A DNA stretch of 64,000 nucleotides from Rossellomorea vietnamensis (GTDB taxonomy: Bacteria > Bacillota > Bacilli > Bacillales > Bacillaceae_B), in contig NZ_CP104558.1 of the NCBI RefSeq assembly GCF_025398035.1, positions 310,001 through 374,000 on the forward strand, written 5' to 3'. The number at the start of each line of letters is the position of its first letter. Position 1 is the stretch's first letter. Positions 4,370-45,845 of this stretch are shown piece after piece. Both the position numbers and the translations under genes were made by a program. A model generated the notes under the pieces. That model saw only the letters and a program-made list of their open reading frames with translations, ran no database searches and had not been told where the DNA came from.

Positions 4370-4657
4370 CAATTAAATGAGCGAATGGCTTTGACGAAGA
4401 GGAGTACCTATAATCGACACTTCAGAGAGCTGGTGGTTGGTGTGAACCAGTGTGAGCGGTACTAGGGAATGGACTTCCGAGCTTCCAAACCGAAACCTTA
4501 GGGAAGTAGGCTTTGGCGAATGTCTTATCGTTACAAAAGACGCGTATTAGAGCATTCTGCTCCGATACGATTGAGTGGACTGTAAAAGCAGTCAACAAAG
4601 GTGGCACCACGGGTATCCCGTCCTTTCTTTTAATAAGATAAGGATTGGGATGCCTTT
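4370..4657 (+). promoter_or_regulatory. T-box leader 1 (tRNA-Trp specifier UGG) of trp operon
   Basis: All T-box landmarks are present. The AGAGGAGTAC (AGUA motif) of stem I is at about 4397-4406. The specifier GGAA-TGG-AC has UGG at 4470-4472. The conserved T-box sequence AAAGGTGGCACCACGG is near 4598-4612, and a terminator GGTATCCCGTCCTT / AAGGATTGGGATGCC with seven T ends at about 4657. The T-box bulge reads UGGC, which would pair with a GCCA tRNA end; G is the usual discriminator of bacterial tRNA-Trp. Uncharged tRNA-Trp would stabilise the antiterminator and allow transcription into leader 2. Confidence 0.92.
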
Positions 4658-4682
4658 TTTTATTCCTTTATATTGATAAATC

Positions 4683-4951
4683 GTTGAATAAGAGGAGTAC
4701 ATTCAAGTGATGCATAACAGGGAGTTAAGGACAGTGAGACCTTAGCATGATAGCTTGTCTGGAATGGACTTATGAGAGATGATCTGAATGAAGTAGGGTC
4801 GTACGGATTTCCACCGTTAAAAGGATAGAGTATCGGGTGATTAACCCTGTACTTGAACCAAGAGGGGATATAAGTATATCCCAATAGAGGTGGCACCGCG
4901 GTCAGCATCGTCCTCTATGAACAGGATTCCTGTTCATAGGGGACTTTTTTT
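4683..4951 (+). promoter_or_regulatory. T-box leader 2 (tRNA-Trp specifier UGG) of trp operon
   Basis: This is a second complete T-box, directly in series. AAGAGGAGTAC is at about 4689-4699. The specifier region GGAATGGACT has UGG at 4765-4767. The T-box AGAGGTGGCACCGCGG is at 4886-4901. The terminator stem GTCCTCTATGAACAGG (4910-4925) / CCTGTTCATAGGGGAC (4929-4944) is followed by TTTTTTT. The bulge is again UGGC. I see no good promoter between the leaders, so transcription must pass both terminators to reach trpE. Confidence 0.92.
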
Positions 4952-12479: not shown

Positions 12480-12489
12480 CAAATCTAAT

Positions 12490-12785
12490 TTGCGTTGATG
12501 AGAAGAGTACATAGTGAAATCACCTTATCAGAGAGCTTCGGAAGCTGAAAAGAAGCAGGGAGATTCTCTATGGAAAATGGTCTCGGAGCATTCTACCCGA
12601 ACCGATGGGGTGTAGGGTAGAACGGGGATGGGCGTCCGTTATCACTGTCACGGTATAAGGGCTTATCTTGCTCCGTACTTGTTGAGGTAGTCTTGCGTGA
12701 GCGAGCTATAAACTAAGGTGGTACCACGAGCTTAACCCCTCGTCCTTGGATGTCTTTCGATATCTATTAGGACGAGGGGTTTTAT
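12490..12785 (+). promoter_or_regulatory. T-box leader (tRNA-Met specifier AUG) of metG
   Basis: Stem I motif GAAGAGTAC is near 12502-12510. The specifier loop GGAAAATGGTC has AUG at 12577-12579. The T-box AAGGTGGTACCACGAG is at 12715-12730. The terminator is a perfect stem CCCCTCGTCCT (12736-12746) / AGGACGAGGGG (12769-12779) followed by TTTTATTTATT. The bulge UGGU would pair with ACCA, matching the usual A discriminator of tRNA-Met. Low charging of tRNA-Met would switch on the synthetase gene. Confidence 0.93.
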
Positions 12786-21801: not shown

Positions 21802-21919
21802 AAAGATAATTATTTTTGTTCGATTAATATACATGATTGAAAAACATTCGTCTTGAATTTTAATCAGAGCAGGAATATAAATATTTTTACGTGCAACTGC
21901 ACTAGGAGGTACATGTTTT

Positions 21920-22117
21920 ATGTTACAAGGTAAAGTTAAATGGTTTAACGCTGAAAAAGGTTTCGGTTTCATCGAAGTTGAAGGTCAAGACGATGTTTTT
22001 GTTCACTTCTCCGCTATCCAAGGTGAAGGATACAAATCATTAGAAGAAGGTCAAGACGTTACATTTGAAATCGTTGAAGGCGCTCGTGGACCACAAGCGG
22101 CAAACGTTCAAAAGTAA
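21920..22117 (+). CDS. csp: Cold-shock protein (CspA/CspB family)
   Basis: 65-residue single cold-shock domain that binds single-stranded RNA/DNA and acts as an RNA chaperone. RNP1 is KGFGFI (13-18) and RNP2 is DVFVHF (25-30); the aromatic residues are intact. AGGAGGTACATGTTTT leads to the ATG. A long leader of about 110 nt probably gives temperature-dependent translation. A strong terminator follows the stop by 17 bp. Confidence 0.96.
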
Positions 22118-22134
22118 TTCAACCGTATAATTTC

Positions 22135-22171
22135 AAGCAGGGTACGTCAGCTGACGTGCCCTGCTTTTTTG
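22135..22171 (+). terminator. Terminator of csp
   Basis: AAGCAGGG-TACGTCAG / CTGACGT-GCCCTGCTT, nearly perfect, followed by TTTTTTG. Confidence 0.92.
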
Positions 22172-40389: not shown

Positions 40390-41115
40390 CTAACGTAACT
40401 TTTCTGATAGACGCTTGGCCAGGGATAGTGCCGCTTCATTATCTCCATGGAGACAAATCGTGTCTGCCTGGATGGATACGGTCTTCCCATCAATAGATAC
40501 CACTTCCTGTTTTTCTACCATTCGAAGCACCTGTCTTTCCACTTCGTCCCCGTCATGAAGGACAGCATGAGGAAGAGAGCGAGGAGTTAATGTACCATCG
40601 GATTGATAGGCGCGATCGGCAAATACTTCATGAGCTACGCGCAATCCTGCTTTTTCACCAGCCCTTGTAAGTTCACTTTGTGACAGGCCGAATAGAGTGA
40701 GGGCGGGGTCAAGGTCGTAAACGGCTTCAGCAATCGCTTGAGCCAGTTTGGAATCCTTTGCAGCCATATTGTACAGTGCCCCATGTGGCTTAACATGTGA
40801 TAGTTTCCCGCCTTGGGCTTTGATAAAAGCGTATAAAGCCCCTATCTGGTATTGAATGAGGGCATAGGTCTCCTCGGGGGAGATCTGCATCATTCTTCTT
40901 CCAAATCCCTGGATGTCCGGCAGCCCGGGATGCGCTCCCATTTTCACTCCATGTTTCATTGCGTTTGAAACAGTTTGTTTCATCACAAGGGGATCTCCCG
41001 CATGAAAACCGCAAGCGATATTGACGGATGTGACATAGTTCATCATTTCTTCATCTTTTCCTATCGTATATGCACCAAAACTTTCCCCTAAATCACAATT
41101 TAAATCAATTTTCAT
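40390..41115 (-). CDS. pxpA: 5-oxoprolinase subunit A / LamB-YcsF family (PxpA)
   Basis: 241-residue LamB/YcsF protein. The start [16 protein letters not shown] is diagnostic, and [28 protein letters not shown] and VKPHGALYN carry the conserved His/Asp residues. With PxpB and PxpC it opens 5-oxoproline to glutamate using ATP. No pxpB/pxpC genes (kipI/kipA) flank it here, unlike most genomes. It is about ten residues shorter than usual at the C-terminus but otherwise intact. AAAGGATGAAAA precedes the ATG. Confidence 0.9.
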
Positions 41116-41261
41116 TTTTTCATCCTTTCGAGCATGAGAATGTATTGTAACATTCTGAATTCTTCTTCATCATATCATAAAAGTATGTCCGTTTGTTTGC
41201 TCTTTAAATAGACTGTTAATAAACAAATGCATTTTCTCATCAAATTTTAATCTTGTTTTAA

Positions 41262-41289
41262 TTGAGTTCACTTTTTCGGGCGTTACAAT
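41262..41289 (+). promoter_or_regulatory. Candidate promoter of a noncoding transcript
   Basis: TTGAGT (41262-41267), 16-bp spacer, TACAAT (41284-41289). It fires toward a long hairpin and an intrinsic terminator with no ORF between. Confidence 0.45.
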
Positions 41290-41295
41290 GAATCT

Positions 41296-41442
41296 TGCTT
41301 ATGAATAAGGATTTATCACTCCCTAAACAGATTGAAAGTGGGGTAGCTTTCTAATCTGTTTAAATCTTTATTATGTAAGACCCATTCTAATTTCTTTCCT
41401 TTGAAGACAAAAGCCTTGCTGAAGCTTTTGTCTTCTTTTTTT
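41296..41442 (+). ncRNA. Candidate structured small RNA (about 147 nt)
   Basis: Between the promoter at 41262 and a terminator at 41403-41442 lies one long imperfect hairpin. The 5' arm (41298-41338) contains ATAAGGATTT and TAAACAGATT-GAAAG. The 3' arm (41347-41379) contains CTTTC-T-AATCTGTTTA-AATC and TTATTATGTAAG. An 8-9-nt bulge (atcactccc) sits on the 5' arm, and TGGGGTAG forms the loop. There is no ORF with a ribosome site. It does not match a riboswitch, 6S or SRP RNA that I can recognise. It may be an sRNA or a relic; expression is unproven. Confidence 0.4.
41403..41442 (+). terminator. Strong terminator with no upstream plus-strand gene
   Basis: GAAGACAAAAGC-CTTGCTGAA-GCTTTTGTCTTC, a perfect 12-bp stem, then TTTTTTT. 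The nearest annotated gene upstream is on the other strand. Confidence 0.9.
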
Positions 41443-41496
41443 ATTTCATTATACTCTTTTAGCAAAAAATCTTGATTATACCCAAAGCAAGTAGTG

Positions 41497-41557
41497 GTTG
41501 ATTTCCGCTGCAGGTGCTCGCTTTCCGCGGGGCGTGAGTTGAGCCTCCTCGGGCGCT
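41497..41557 (+). repeat. Left half of palindromic dispersed repeat, interrupted by IS
   Basis: GTTGATTTCCGCTGCAGGTG and CTCGCTTTCCGCGGGGCG, then GAGTTGAG and GGGCGCT. This matches a long GC-rich palindromic repeat common between genes in Bacillus relatives. Its other arm resumes at 43006. Confidence 0.75.
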
Positions 41558-41583
41558 TGAGTTGCACCCCTATTGTTGGACAC
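41558..41583 (+). repeat. IS left inverted repeat (IRL)
   Basis: 26 bp starting TGAGTTGCACC and ending TGTTGGACAC, matching the right end in inverse orientation at 19 of 26 positions; the inner 10 bp are identical. Confidence 0.8.
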
Positions 41584-41613
41584 CCCAACCAACAATAGGA
41601 GGTGCCAGCACGT

Positions 41614-42132
41614 ATGGCCAAGTTTACTCAAGAATCTAAATTGAAAGCTGCTAAACGTTATCTTAATGAACTCGTTAGTTATCGAGATCTTGCCAATCAA
41701 GTGGGGGTTGATCAATCTGTTCTGCGCTATTGGGTGATGTTAGTTCGTCACCACGGGGACCAAGCCTTTACCTTTCCCTATACAAACTATCCTTCCGCCT
41801 TTAAACTGAGGGTAATTCAATTTATTACGGAGAAGAATTGCTCCATTCGAGAGGCATCAGCCATTTTTCATATCCCAGACCCCTGTATGGTTCGTAGGTG
41901 GGTCAAAAAGTGGGAAAGAGCTGGAGAAGATGCCTTCGGATCATTAGAAATGAGGCCTTCTACAATGACATCTAATCATAAAGATAAGAAGATCAAAGAT
42001 AACTCTTCTAACCAAACGATGGAAGATATGAAAAAAGAACTGGAATACCTTCGTATGGAAAATGCGTATTTAAAAAAGCTAAAAGCCTTAGTTCAGGAAG
42101 AACCATCACCAACGAAATCAAAGCGAAAGTAG
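41614..42132 (+). CDS. IS3-family transposase OrfA
   Basis: 172-residue DNA-binding part of the transposase. Two helix-turn-helix segments are visible: KRYLNELVSYRDLANQVGVDQSVLRYWV and FITEKNCSIREASAIFHIPDPCMVRRWV (each quoted over separate halves in residues about 14-42 and 70-97). A leucine-rich coiled coil follows near the end. AGGAGGTG precedes ATG 41614. The frameshift motif A-AAA-AAG at 42072-42078 allows a -1 shift into orfB to make the OrfAB transposase. Confidence 0.9.
   Translation: MAKFTQESKLKAAKRYLNELVSYRDLANQVGVDQSVLRYWVMLVRHHGDQAFTFPYTNYPSAFKLRVIQFITEKNCSIREASAIFHIPDPCMVRRWVKKWERAGEDAFGSLEMRPSTMTSNHKDKKIKDNSSNQTMEDMKKELEYLRMENAYLKKLKALVQEEPSPTKSKRK
42072..42078 (+). promoter_or_regulatory. 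Programmed -1 frameshift site
   Basis: A-AAA-AAG heptamer in the orfA frame (TTA AAA AAG). After a -1 slip the reading frame stays open through 42159 into orfB. This is the standard IS3-family slippery sequence. Confidence 0.8.
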
Positions 42133-42158
42133 TATTTGAACTAAGGAACGAATTCCCG

Positions 42159-42971
42159 GTGACTAAAATGATAAAAGTAGCTAAGCTGCCTAAAAGTACT
42201 TACTATCACATCACAAAAAAATTAGACCAACCAGATCCTGATCGCAAATGGAAAAGAAGGATCAATTTCATCTACCATAAACACTTAGGACGCCTTGGGT
42301 ACCGTCGCATTACGGACGTTCTTCAAGCAAAAGGACACGATATAAATAAAAAGAAAGTCCTTCGAATCATGAGAGAATTGGGCCTTAAATGCATTGTGCG
42401 AATGAAAAAATATAAATCCTACAAAGGGAAAGTTGGAAAAGTAGCTCCCAACATCCTAAATCGTAATTTTAGAGCCGATAAACCTAATCAAAAATGGGTG
42501 ACAGACGTAACGGAGTTCAAACTGTTCGGTCAAAAGCTCTATCTGTCCCCCATTCTAGACCTATTTAACGGAGAGATCATTACCTATACGCTCCAATCAA
42601 GGCCGACATTTGACTTGGTCGAGAAGATGTTAGAAAAAGGATTAAAACATGTAAATGAAGGCGATGAGCTCTTAATCCATTCAGATCAAGGGTGGCATTA
42701 TCAAATGGCTCAGTACCGAAGGACACTGAAAAAACATAACATCACCCAAAGTATGTCTCGTAAAGGAAACTGTTACGACAACTCGGTCATGGAGAACTTT
42801 TTTGGGATAATGAAGTCTGAGTTCCTTTACTTAAAGGAATTTGATAGTATCGAGCACTTTAAAGAAGAACTGAAAGAATACATGTATTACTACAATCACC
42901 TGAGAATCAAATCAAGGTTAAAACGAAAAAGTCCGGTAGCTTATCGAGTAAGTACTGAATTAGCTGCTTAG
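42159..42971 (+). CDS. IS3-family transposase OrfB (DDE integrase domain)
   Basis: 270-residue catalytic part. The DD(35)E triad is intact: Asp116 (WVTDVTEF), Asp176 (LLIHSDQGWHYQ) and Glu212 (YDNSVMENFFGIMKSE). HTH_21 (HKHLGRLGYRRITDVLQ) precedes it. Mainly expressed as the OrfAB fusion by frameshifting, although a GTG start at 42159 exists. The stop lies 34 bp before the right end. Resembles the IS150 subgroup. Confidence 0.92.
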   Translation: MTKMIKVAKLPKSTYYHITKKLDQPDPDRKWKRRINFIYHKHLGRLGYRRITDVLQAKGHDINKKKVLRIMRELGLKCIVRMKKYKSYKGKVGKVAPNILNRNFRADKPNQKWVTDVTEFKLFGQKLYLSPILDLFNGEIITYTLQSRPTFDLVEKMLEKGLKHVNEGDELLIHSDQGWHYQMAQYRRTLKKHNITQSMSRKGNCYDNSVMENFFGIMKSEFLYLKEFDSIEHFKEELKEYMYYYNHLRIKSRLKRKSPVAYRVSTELAA

Positions 42972-42979
42972 AAATTTAA

Positions 42980-43005
42980 GTGTCCAACATTATGGGGCCA
43001 GTGCA
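42980..43005 (+). repeat. IS right inverted repeat (IRR)
   Basis: GTGTCCAACATTATGGGGCC-AGTGCA, inverse of the left end with 7 mismatches. Confidence 0.8.
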
Positions 43006-43075
43006 GCGCTGCCCTGTGGGGTCTCAACTTTCCCGCTATTCCCGTCGGAGTCGAGCACCTTCCGCTCCAATCAAC
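43006..43075 (+). repeat. Right half of palindromic dispersed repeat
   Basis: GCGCTGCCCTGTGGGGTCTC, CAACTTTCCCGCTATTCCCG and GAGCACCTTCCGCTCCAATC-AAC are the inverted counterparts of the left half. Joining 41497-41557 to 43011-43075 (counting the GCGCT duplication once) restores a continuous repeat. Confidence 0.75.
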
Positions 43076-43167
43076 TGAATTTTGAAAGTTTTAACACATA
43101 AAGATTAACAGAGAAAGAAAATCATAGTCTTTGTTGGAATCACGACAAAAGTCATTCTTTTAGATAT

Positions 43168-43385: not shown

Positions 43386-43604
43386 ACAATTTCCCCCTTT
43401 TGCTTCTCAACTATGTTTATGGATATATCTACCACATTATGAAGAGAATGAAACATGATCAGGATCAACAAACCGAATAATGCAGATGATTATAATATGA
43501 TTATGTAAATTGATTCATCTCTTAATGAAAACTCACCTTTTTCTCATTTTATTTTAATGATGGAGGAGCAGAATGAAAGTAGTGATAAAAGGGAGGTTAG
43601 AACC

Positions 43605-43761: not shown

Positions 43762-44439
43762 GTGAAAAGAATCTTGGTCATTGAAGATGAAAAGAATCTC
43801 TCCCGATTCATCGAATTGGAATTGAAATACGAAGGGTACGAAGTCGGCCTGGCCTATGATGGGAGAGATGGCCTGGATCAAGCCCTTAACGAAGAATGGG
43901 ACATCATCCTCCTGGATCTGATGCTTCCCGGCTTAAATGGATTGGAAGTGTGCAGAAGAGTCAGGCAGGTCAAAGCCATCCCCATCCTGATGATTACGGC
44001 AAGGGATAGCGTGATGGACCGGGTATCGGGGCTTGACAGCGGGGCGGATGATTATATCGTCAAACCCTTTGCCATTGAAGAGTTGTTAGCAAGGCTAAGG
44101 GCTGTGTTCAGGCGCGCCGTAAAAGAGGATGCCGCTCAACAGACCTCGTTTCATTTTCGGGATCTCATCGTATACAAGGAGTCCAGGCAAGTTTTTAAGC
44201 TTGAAGATGAAATTGACGTGACCAAACGGGAGTATGACCTTCTACTTGCTTTTTTAGAGAACAAGAATATTGTGCTGACCCGTGAAGTCCTCCTCAATAA
44301 AGTTTGGGGATACGATACGGAAGTGGAAACGAATGTTGTGGACGTATACGTAAGGTACTTAAGGAATAAAATAGATTCCCCAGGCGAAGAAAGTTATATC
44401 CAGACCGTACGTGGGACCGGATATGTGATGAGGACATGA
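43762..44439 (+). CDS. OmpR-family response regulator (ArlR/YkoG-like)
   Basis: 225-residue regulator with a receiver domain (1-115) and a winged-helix DNA-binding domain (about 128-225). The phosphorylation site is Asp52 in LLDLMLPG, with acidic IEDE at 8-10, Thr in MITARD and Lys in IVKPF. The output domain shows VTKREYDLLLAFLENKN and VWGYDTEVETNVVDVYVRYLRNKI. GTG start after GAGCAGGTGATTGT. It overlaps the kinase gene by ATGA. It resembles ArlR of staphylococci and YkoG of B. subtilis; the target genes are unknown. Confidence 0.9.
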   Translation: MKRILVIEDEKNLSRFIELELKYEGYEVGLAYDGRDGLDQALNEEWDIILLDLMLPGLNGLEVCRRVRQVKAIPILMITARDSVMDRVSGLDSGADDYIVKPFAIEELLARLRAVFRRAVKEDAAQQTSFHFRDLIVYKESRQVFKLEDEIDVTKREYDLLLAFLENKNIVLTREVLLNKVWGYDTEVETNVVDVYVRYLRNKIDSPGEESYIQTVRGTGYVMRT

Positions 44440-45845
44440 ATACATTCATCAATCGACTTAAGCCTTCTTCCCTTAAGGTGAAGTGGGCATTTGCAGCCGG
44501 GTCAGCCATATTCCTTGCCTTTTTTTTGTTCAGTTTTTTTCAATATCACGCCATTAATAAATGGATGCTTGATGAAGAAGAAAGTAACTTTGGCCGGGTA
44601 TTGGATGAAATTACTGTCTTCTTTAAACAGAGAGGGAACGATATAAAGCTTCAGGACATATATGATAGCCGGGACCTAATGAAACAAATAGCCGAAAAAG
44701 ACCAGACGATACGGATATTGGATCGTCAAGGGGAACAGGTATTGGAAATCAGGGGAGAAAATGAGTCTGCCTTCTATGTGCCATTTCAACCTGTGAATGA
44801 TAAATCTGTGGAACTCATAGAATCAGAAGGCAAGAAAATGCTCATTGGGCGTTCACCCATCAAATCGACCCGATTTAATGGTTATGTAGAAATCATACAG
44901 CCATTGAACCGGTATGAAAACATCATGAAGAATCTTTTTTGGATGATGACCATCACGGGCATCCTGGCTCTATTGATCAGTGCTGTTATTGGGTATTCGA
45001 TGGCGAAAAGCTTTGTCCGTCCATTGAATAAACTTTCTGAAACAATGAGATCCATCGAAAGAAAAGGATTTCACGAAAGAGTGGAGATTGTAAAGGCCCA
45101 TGATGAAATCAGTGACTTATCCCAAATTTTCAATAAAATGATGAGTCAGATTGAAAAATCGTTTCAACAGCAGCAGCAATTTGTGGAAGATGCTTCACAT
45201 GAATTGAGAACCCCCATTCAGGTACTTGAAGGGCATCTTGCATTATTGAATCGTTGGGGGAAAAAGGATCCGACCATACTGGAGGAGTCTTTACAAGTAT
45301 CCTTAGATGAACTTGAGAGAGTAAAACGCCTTGTAGGGGAATTGCTGGAGCTTTCCAGAGCGGACAGGGAAAAATTCGATTTGGAAAACGCCAGGGCAAA
45401 TGTACAGAAAGTAGTGGATAAAGTGATGAGGGATTTTAGGTTCCTTCATCAGGAATACACTTTTTCTTGTTTTGATGATTTAAACCACGAAGCGTTGGTA
45501 ACCATTATGCCGAGGCACCTGGAGCAGATCATGATCATCCTGTTGGATAATGCCGTGAAATACTCTGATGAGCATTCCACTATTGAAGTGAAGCTAATGG
45601 ACTCTCAGGAAGACATTATCATAGAAGTTAAGGATGAGGGGATCGGTATTCCTGAGGAAGATCTTCCGAAAATCTTTGACCGCTTTTATCGCGTGGATAA
45701 AGCAAGAAGCCGCGAGAAAGGTGGATATGGACTGGGCTTGGCCATCGCTTCGAAGCTGGTCCAAAACTATGACGGTGAGATTATGGCCATTGGAAACCAT
45801 CCTCATGGGACCATCATTCGACTGGCCCTTAAACAAATCCATTGA
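44436..45845 (+). CDS. Sensor histidine kinase (ArlS/YkoH-like)
   Basis: 469-residue kinase: N-terminal helix (about 17-36), extracellular sensor (about 40-165), second helix (FWMMTITGILALLISAVIGY), HAMP domain (SFVRPLNKLSETM), HisKA with phosphorylated His255 in ASHELRTPIQVLEG, and an ATPase domain with N box LDNAVKYSDEHSTIEV, G1 DEGIGIPEEDLPKIFDRFYR and G2 GGYGLGLAIA. The signal is not known. It is a classical partner of the preceding regulator, coupled by a 4-nt overlap. Confidence 0.92.
   Translation: MNTFINRLKPSSLKVKWAFAAGSAIFLAFFLFSFFQYHAINKWMLDEEESNFGRVLDEITVFFKQRGNDIKLQDIYDSRDLMKQIAEKDQTIRILDRQGEQVLEIRGENESAFYVPFQPVNDKSVELIESEGKKMLIGRSPIKSTRFNGYVEIIQPLNRYENIMKNLFWMMTITGILALLISAVIGYSMAKSFVRPLNKLSETMRSIERKGFHERVEIVKAHDEISDLSQIFNKMMSQIEKSFQQQQQFVEDASHELRTPIQVLEGHLALLNRWGKKDPTILEESLQVSLDELERVKRLVGELLELSRADREKFDLENARANVQKVVDKVMRDFRFLHQEYTFSCFDDLNHEALVTIMPRHLEQIMIILLDNAVKYSDEHSTIEVKLMDSQEDIIIEVKDEGIGIPEEDLPKIFDRFYRVDKARSREKGGYGLGLAIASKLVQNYDGEIMAIGNHPHGTIIRLALKQIH

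Follow-up and report, generated by a model that had tools for sequence, protein, structure and literature searches.

In the small RNA RsaI, a 5' hairpin is followed by a pyrimidine-rich linker and then by a terminator. According to two reports, the LhrC1-5 RNAs of Listeria monocytogenes consist of a stem-loop, a single-stranded stretch, and a terminator and are induced by the two-component system LisRK via a region upstream of -53, and their CU-rich, UCCC-bearing unpaired parts pair with Shine-Dalgarno regions (PMC4132741; PMC5880928). LhrC occurs in five copies, each bearing three UCCC motifs, and both its regulator dependence and its pairing have been proven (PMC4132741; PMC5880928). For ArlRS of Staphylococcus aureus, a further paper names the protein regulators MgrA and Spx as outputs and calls the sensed signal unknown (PMC8450000).

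Here we describe a plus-strand locus (~41234-41442) in a 64,000-nucleotide stretch of the Rossellomorea vietnamensis genome (the window). The locus holds no protein gene and has the appearance of a genuine small RNA gene conserved in evolution. The RNA is probably switched on by a neighboring ArlRS-type system, as judged from sequence comparisons. We know of no ArlR-activated small RNA; the open-licence literature yielded no related report on a small RNA in Rossellomorea and none joining ArlRS, LisRK, sRNA, two-component system, and Bacillus. We regard it as a new RNA family, though of a kind already known.

Architecture of the predicted small RNA locus

A new small RNA gene, equipped with a promoter and a terminator of its own and free of an ORF, had been proposed in the initial annotation of this region, and the sequence supports this view. 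The extent first assigned to the gene, 41262-41442, covers most of it, but the true start lies upstream, where a response-regulator box begins at 41234 (Table 1). The gene is single-copy: a DNA search of its own genome returned one match to the RNA, and the next covariance-model hit had an E-value of 0.57. No plus-strand ORF of at least 60 aa lies over the element, in agreement with the statement that no plus-strand gene explains the terminator, and a minus-strand ORF of 101 aa (41316-41621) overlaps the element mechanically. The terminator does end in the seven T reported for it; its stem, described as perfect, is nearly so. It was absent from the output of a simple terminator scan.

Table 1. 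Features of the small RNA locus and of the adjacent ArlRS-type genes, in window positions.
Feature	Position	Strand	Remarks
Response-regulator box, four 7-base half-sites, 11-bp period	41234-41273	+	Last two half-sites overlap the -35 region
Half-site TTCTCAT	41234-41240	+	
Half-site TTTTAAT	41245-41251	+	
Half-site TTTTAAT	41256-41262	+	
Half-site TTCACTT	41267-41273	+	
-35-like TTGAGT	41262-41267	+	Spacer of 16 to the -10 element
-10 element TACAAT	41284-41289	+	TANNAT in 27 of 27 loci
Small RNA, ~147 nt	41296-41442	+	5' end deduced from the -10 element, 3' end from the terminator T-run
Long bulged hairpin, 82 nt	41298-41379	+	Folds; compensatory changes
One-sided 10-nt bulge UCACUCCCUA	41316-41325	+	Proposed seed 1, anti-Shine-Dalgarno, UCCC motif; unpaired in the fold
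Apical loop GGGGUA, inside TGGGGTAG	41340-41345	+	Fold
Single-stranded linker ACCCAUUCUAAUUUCUUUCCUUU	41380-41402	+	Proposed seed 2; pyrimidine-rich
Intrinsic terminator, stem	41403-41435	+	One bulged base
Intrinsic terminator, seven T	41436-41442	+	
Second box copy TTCTCATTTTATTTTAAT	43541-43558	+	Before the arlRS genes, 221 nt from arlR
ORF of 41 aa	43605-43730	+	Hydrophobic by eye; lies after the box and before arlR; may open the operon
Putative ArlR-type regulator of the OmpR family	43762-44439	+	Response_reg and Trans_reg_C
ArlS-type histidine kinase	44436-45845	+	ArlS_N (Pfam) at 89.8 bits, E = 2.4e-25; cut-off 27

The predicted transcript folds at -42.9 kcal/mol, compared to -24.1 ± 3.6 kcal/mol for shuffled sequences (z = -5.2; 0 of 200 shuffles as good). 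The imperfect hairpin, first put at 80 nt, and its apical loop were recovered; the one-sided bulge is present and comprises 10 nt rather than 8-9 nt. Among 9 other homologues folded, the hairpin and terminator appeared in 7, with z between -3.9 and -5.6; the 5' part of L024 refolds differently, and L027 cut to 147 nt gave z = -1.5, with 13 of 200 shuffles as good.

That the locus encodes a very short peptide (MNKDLSLPKQ...), either as a plain mRNA or as an RNA of dual function, is a far-fetched reading. An ATG does open a 17-codon frame in the window, and by reading MNKDLSLPKQ recurs in 13 of 25 loci, but the ATGAAT frame varies from 4 to 47 codons over 23 loci, shifted by small indels, and is absent in L024-L025; moreover, no Shine-Dalgarno sequence precedes it, and its ATG sits in the basal stem (both by reading). 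A conserved short peptide was rejected because the frame inside the RNA is not kept among loci. With its own promoter and terminator, a conserved fold, and no conserved ORF, the predicted gene has, by sequence, what is expected of a trans-acting base-pairing small RNA.

Conservation of the RNA within the genus

Loss in close relatives had been named as a point against the gene; the RNA is carried by 27 of the 36 Rossellomorea genomes, with 25 full-length copies and 2 diverged ones (L027 and L028, partial match). The DNA search of 199 genomes (nearest relatives plus the genome itself) gave matches in 39, of which 27 are within the genus and the remaining 12 are short matches outside it, to the box or the 3' end; 9 of the 36 genus genomes had no match. 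For 23 of the 24 relatives with a full-length copy, the matched DNA stops at 41439-41446, near the T-run, and in L002 the match continues past. The covariance model detected 25 of the 36 genus genomes at E ≤ 1e-6, with G019 marginal (0.09) and G002 missed, and the box followed by TTGCT at nearly fixed spacing was found in 27 of 36 (0 of 36 for the reversed control). Across the order (397 genomes), model R1 with stricter filters recovered 15 of 16 genus members and 0 of 381 others. The core-pattern scan of named genomes returned 17 contigs: 11 Rossellomorea, 5 Bacillus sp., and 1 Bacillus haikouensis. A diverged copy in one genome of another family (L026/L184) lies between two boxes before arlR and has an R1 E-value of 0.012, the linker ACCCATTCTAA, and a terminator-like end. 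In the diverged copies L027 and L028 (L100, 14991-15173), the terminator loop seemingly holds 40-odd extra bases (46 for L028 in the model alignment).

RNAalifold applied to all 25 full-length loci left the fast-evolving apical half unpaired, with 2 compensatory pairs, and pairs were therefore counted over the 18 loci (16 distinct) of the same hairpin type, omitting L019-L025, L027, and L028. For the 45 pairs considered, 97.6% of cells pair. The compensatory base changes proposed as a check were found: two-sided changes occur in 7 pairs (14 cells), compared to 2.8 ± 1.0 after shuffling (0 of 500 as high) and 1-3 in slid versions. Covariation reached 0.092, versus 0.065 ± 0.005 shuffled and no more than 0.046 in slid versions. 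The number of further pair types was ordinary, being equalled or exceeded in 88 of 500 shuffles.

Conservation among the unpaired parts is highest in pyrimidine-rich stretches, whose complements resemble Shine-Dalgarno sequences. Of the 25 full-length loci, 23 have CACTCC in the bulge, 22 have TCACTCC, and 18 have UCCC; the motif is missing from L024 and L025. The linker carries CATTCTAAWTTY in 25 of 25 loci and ACCCATTC in 21 of 25. The hint at a 6S-like or protein-binding RNA found no support, and a reading in which the RNA is real and ArlR-controlled but acts via protein binding (6S-like, CsrA-like, or another sponge), with the hairpin as its active part, is improbable in our view. The long, well-kept rod and the apical GGGG (loop GGGGTAG in 18 of 25 loci, L001-L018) would suit such a function, but the apical half is variable both in its sequence and in its length, and L019-L025 lack the loop, while all 25 loci keep the linker core CATTCTAA, as does the diverged copy of the other family. 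In L020, L022, and L023, different sequences stand in for the apical half and still close a hairpin; L019 and L021 are identical to L020.

The proposed comparison with Rfam gave no significant family match: six matches were obtained for 41200-41520 at E ≤ 10, none passing the gathering cut-off, the best with E = 0.54. Neither 6S RNA, judged a poor fit from the outset and also at odds with the one-sided bulge, nor LhrC, whose family has an Rfam model, was among the six. RsaOG (RF01775), a tempting candidate by layout, scored 16.2 bits (E = 4.1), below its cut-off of 50, and was rejected; a search of the whole genome with this model found nothing over the cut-off, and its best place lay elsewhere than the RNA (E = 2.1).

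Elsewhere in the window we noted three T-box leaders (4382-4628, 4675-4918, and 12486-12750; two in tandem) and a match to the cspA thermoregulator (21831-22167; 83.9 bits against an Rfam cut-off of 78) in this Gram-positive genome.

Promoter and response-regulator box

The promoter had been read as a plausible sigma-A promoter. Its -10 element is conserved, but at the -35 position a TTG start occurs in only 11 of 27 loci and the hexamer is not conserved. Promoter-like sites are no more frequent than by chance in 40500-42200 (2, versus 3.5 ± 1.9 in shuffles). The conserved upstream block reads TTCTCAT-N4-TTTTAAT-N4-TTTTAAT-N4-TTCACTT and lies at a nearly fixed distance from the RNA start across loci; all 27 aligned loci share TTCTCAT as the first half-site, and the second is TTTTAAT in 22 and TTCTAAT in 5. 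With four half-sites extending into the -35 region, where no hexamer is conserved, the promoter looks activator-dependent rather than plain sigma-A. Half-sites overlapping the -35 region in this way are expected for an OmpR-family activator.

The pattern TTCTCATNNNATTNTAATC has one exact match in the genome, at the small RNA, and the site upstream of arlRS is among three with one mismatch. The looser form TTYTCAYNNNNWTYTAAT occurs at two places only in the 64 kb, at the small RNA and before arlR. In relatives, the box precedes arlR by ~203-224 nt in 27 of 28 cases by regular expression (25 measured directly; L125 and L126 from the coordinates of box and arlR), and the 28th, L117, is one base off. 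The ArlR motif of S. aureus is reportedly TTTTCTCAT-N4-TTTTAATAA, with which the window box agrees except for the last two bases.

That the box of a real small RNA belongs to another OmpR-family regulator, the sharing with the arlRS promoter being coincidence or cross-regulation, seems unlikely to us. OmpR-family boxes look alike, and across the order the box gave 71 matches in 64 of 397 genomes (11 for the reversed control). Of the 55 matches outside the genus 46 were examined, and 41 of these precede a plus-strand ORF (at least 99 aa or cut by the end of the stretch, starting 28-140 nt downstream), with a PepSY domain in 3 of 3 tested; the linker motif accompanies 1 of the 46 (L184). These sites (L159-L204) may mark an ArlR/YkoG-type regulon across the order. 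The DNA-binding part of the neighboring regulator likewise scores higher with CovR (3rjp, 117 bits) than with ArlR (6is4, 93 bits), and six full-length regulators outscore ArlR in total. Against another regulator stand the confinement of the looser box to the small RNA and arlRS in the window and the tracking of arlR by the RNA across the genus, described below.

Association with the ArlRS-type system

The neighboring two-component system is ArlRS-type by its ArlS_N sensor domain, which scores above the cut-off, and for the receiver of its regulator the best-scoring receiver-only PDB chain was S. aureus ArlR (6is1, 162 bits), the highest such chain other than ArlR reaching 124. The 41-aa ORF preceding arlR had no Pfam match; this reading is also visible in L120. 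An IS3-family element (41480-43090; ORFs 41602-42132 and 42159-42971) lies between the small RNA and arlRS, with ends TGTTGGACA/TGTCCAACA by eye, apparently inside GC-rich repeat-like sequence; neither ORF was matched within 1.5 kb past the RNA in L002-L025.

With a limit of E ≤ 1e-80, which was our choice, arlR was matched in 29 of 36 genus genomes, including all 27 that bear the RNA, and 0 of the 7 genomes without an arlR match carry it (one-sided Fisher test 4.3e-6, uncorrected for ancestry; the seven negatives may be one lineage). One of these seven is 84% complete (G009), and two are 7-10% contaminated (G011 and G035). In G018 and G025 arlR is present and the RNA was not found.

The RNA and arlR are on different contigs in G001, G016, G021, G024, and G029. 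In the first four of these they are not neighbors and the RNA retains its box; for G001, G021, and G024 the distance is genuine, as arlR sits hundreds of kb within its contig. The retention of the box despite this separation fits control in trans. It also bears on a cis-acting role for the RNA, as leader or attenuator for a neighboring gene or as antisense to pxpA, to which we give very little credence. The RNA is divergent from pxpA in L001-L021 and lies upstream of the arlRS genes in many genus genomes, but a strong terminator ends it, and L022-L025, with arlR on another contig and no pxpA within ~1.5 kb (nor in the 5-8 kb of L058 and L060), still keep both RNA and box.

Proposed mechanism and candidate targets

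The explanation that we favor, with reasonable confidence, is an ArlR-activated trans-acting RNA whose unpaired, pyrimidine-rich bulge and linker would pair with ribosome-binding sites. Phosphorylated ArlR would bind the four tandem half-sites upstream of the -10 element and recruit RNA polymerase to a promoter without a conserved -35 element; we infer both this binding and the resulting transcription. The ~147-nt transcript would fold into the long 5' hairpin, the pyrimidine-rich linker, and the terminator, leaving UCACUCCCUA and ACCCAUUCUAAUUUCUUUCCUUU free to pair with Shine-Dalgarno and start regions. Because these conserved unpaired stretches are complementary to such regions, the RNA, when ArlRS is active, would most likely repress translation of unlinked mRNAs. 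The analogy with LhrC, whose CU-rich parts pair with Shine-Dalgarno sequences and whose expression needs LisR, leads to the same expectation.

In three genomes, the bulge complement followed by a start codon, GGGAGTGA-N0-10-ATG, was found 48, 38, and 42 times, compared to 15, 7, and 11 for the reversed control, that is, 3 to 5 times more often, as for a Shine-Dalgarno type in use. The complement of the linker is AAAGGAAAGAAAUUAGAAUGGGU, which by reading resembles a ribosome site made up of a Shine-Dalgarno, a spacer, and AUG, and sites resembling this complement were little above the reversed control (61 versus 42 in G000; 36 versus 43 in G024). A search for it in 6 genomes gave nothing firm among the matches listed, which cover 4 of the 6 (not G000 and G017); the exact matches among them lie in the RNA gene itself. 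For the bulge complement, 90 stretches (30 loci and 60 further ones) of the 128 matches in the three genomes were read, giving 50 readings of at least 40 aa. Among these stretches, ornithine carbamoyltransferase (argF) appeared in 3 of 3 genomes, as the one candidate that kept the complement in all three, and S-ribosylhomocysteine lyase (luxS) in 2 of 3. Conservation of Shine-Dalgarno sequences is expected in any case. Both leads are too weak to claim, and argF and luxS as targets are a guess only.

Comparison with known systems

A tentative further proposal, which we put forward with considerable doubt, is that the strongest ArlRS output in the genus is no protein but a small RNA, driven by the one exact copy of the box in the genome and carrying two different seeds, bulge and linker, that mimic ribosome sites. 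If true, activation of a small RNA would give ArlRS, known chiefly as a driver of protein regulators, an RNA arm as well, and other ArlRS bacteria may have a counterpart of this arm, as the diverged copy before arlR in L026 hints. Many small RNAs found by computer lack a known input, whereas this new family has a likely one in ArlRS. A single-copy, strongly boxed RNA output in an environmental genus could also serve as a simple reporter for the ArlRS signal.

Among the described RNAs, 6S RNA shares the rod-like hairpin with the Rossellomorea RNA, which differs in having a one-sided bulge, its own terminator after the linker, and no Rfam match. RsaOG/RsaI of S. aureus has a similar layout. LhrC differs in that its regulator dependence and pairing are proven, the Rossellomorea RNA being known by sequence, and in copy number and motifs: the latter RNA has one copy, a single UCCC in the bulge, and ACCC and UUUCC in the linker. 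The two resemble each other in the hairpin, single-stranded linker, terminator, pyrimidine-rich unpaired parts, and, by prediction for Rossellomorea, two-component control, which suggests a recurrent coupling of ArlRS/LisRK-like systems to pyrimidine-rich small RNAs in Bacillota. With S. aureus ArlRS, the neighboring system shares the ArlS_N sensor domain and an ArlR-like receiver; the outputs named for S. aureus are protein regulators, whereas in Rossellomorea the candidate output is a small RNA.
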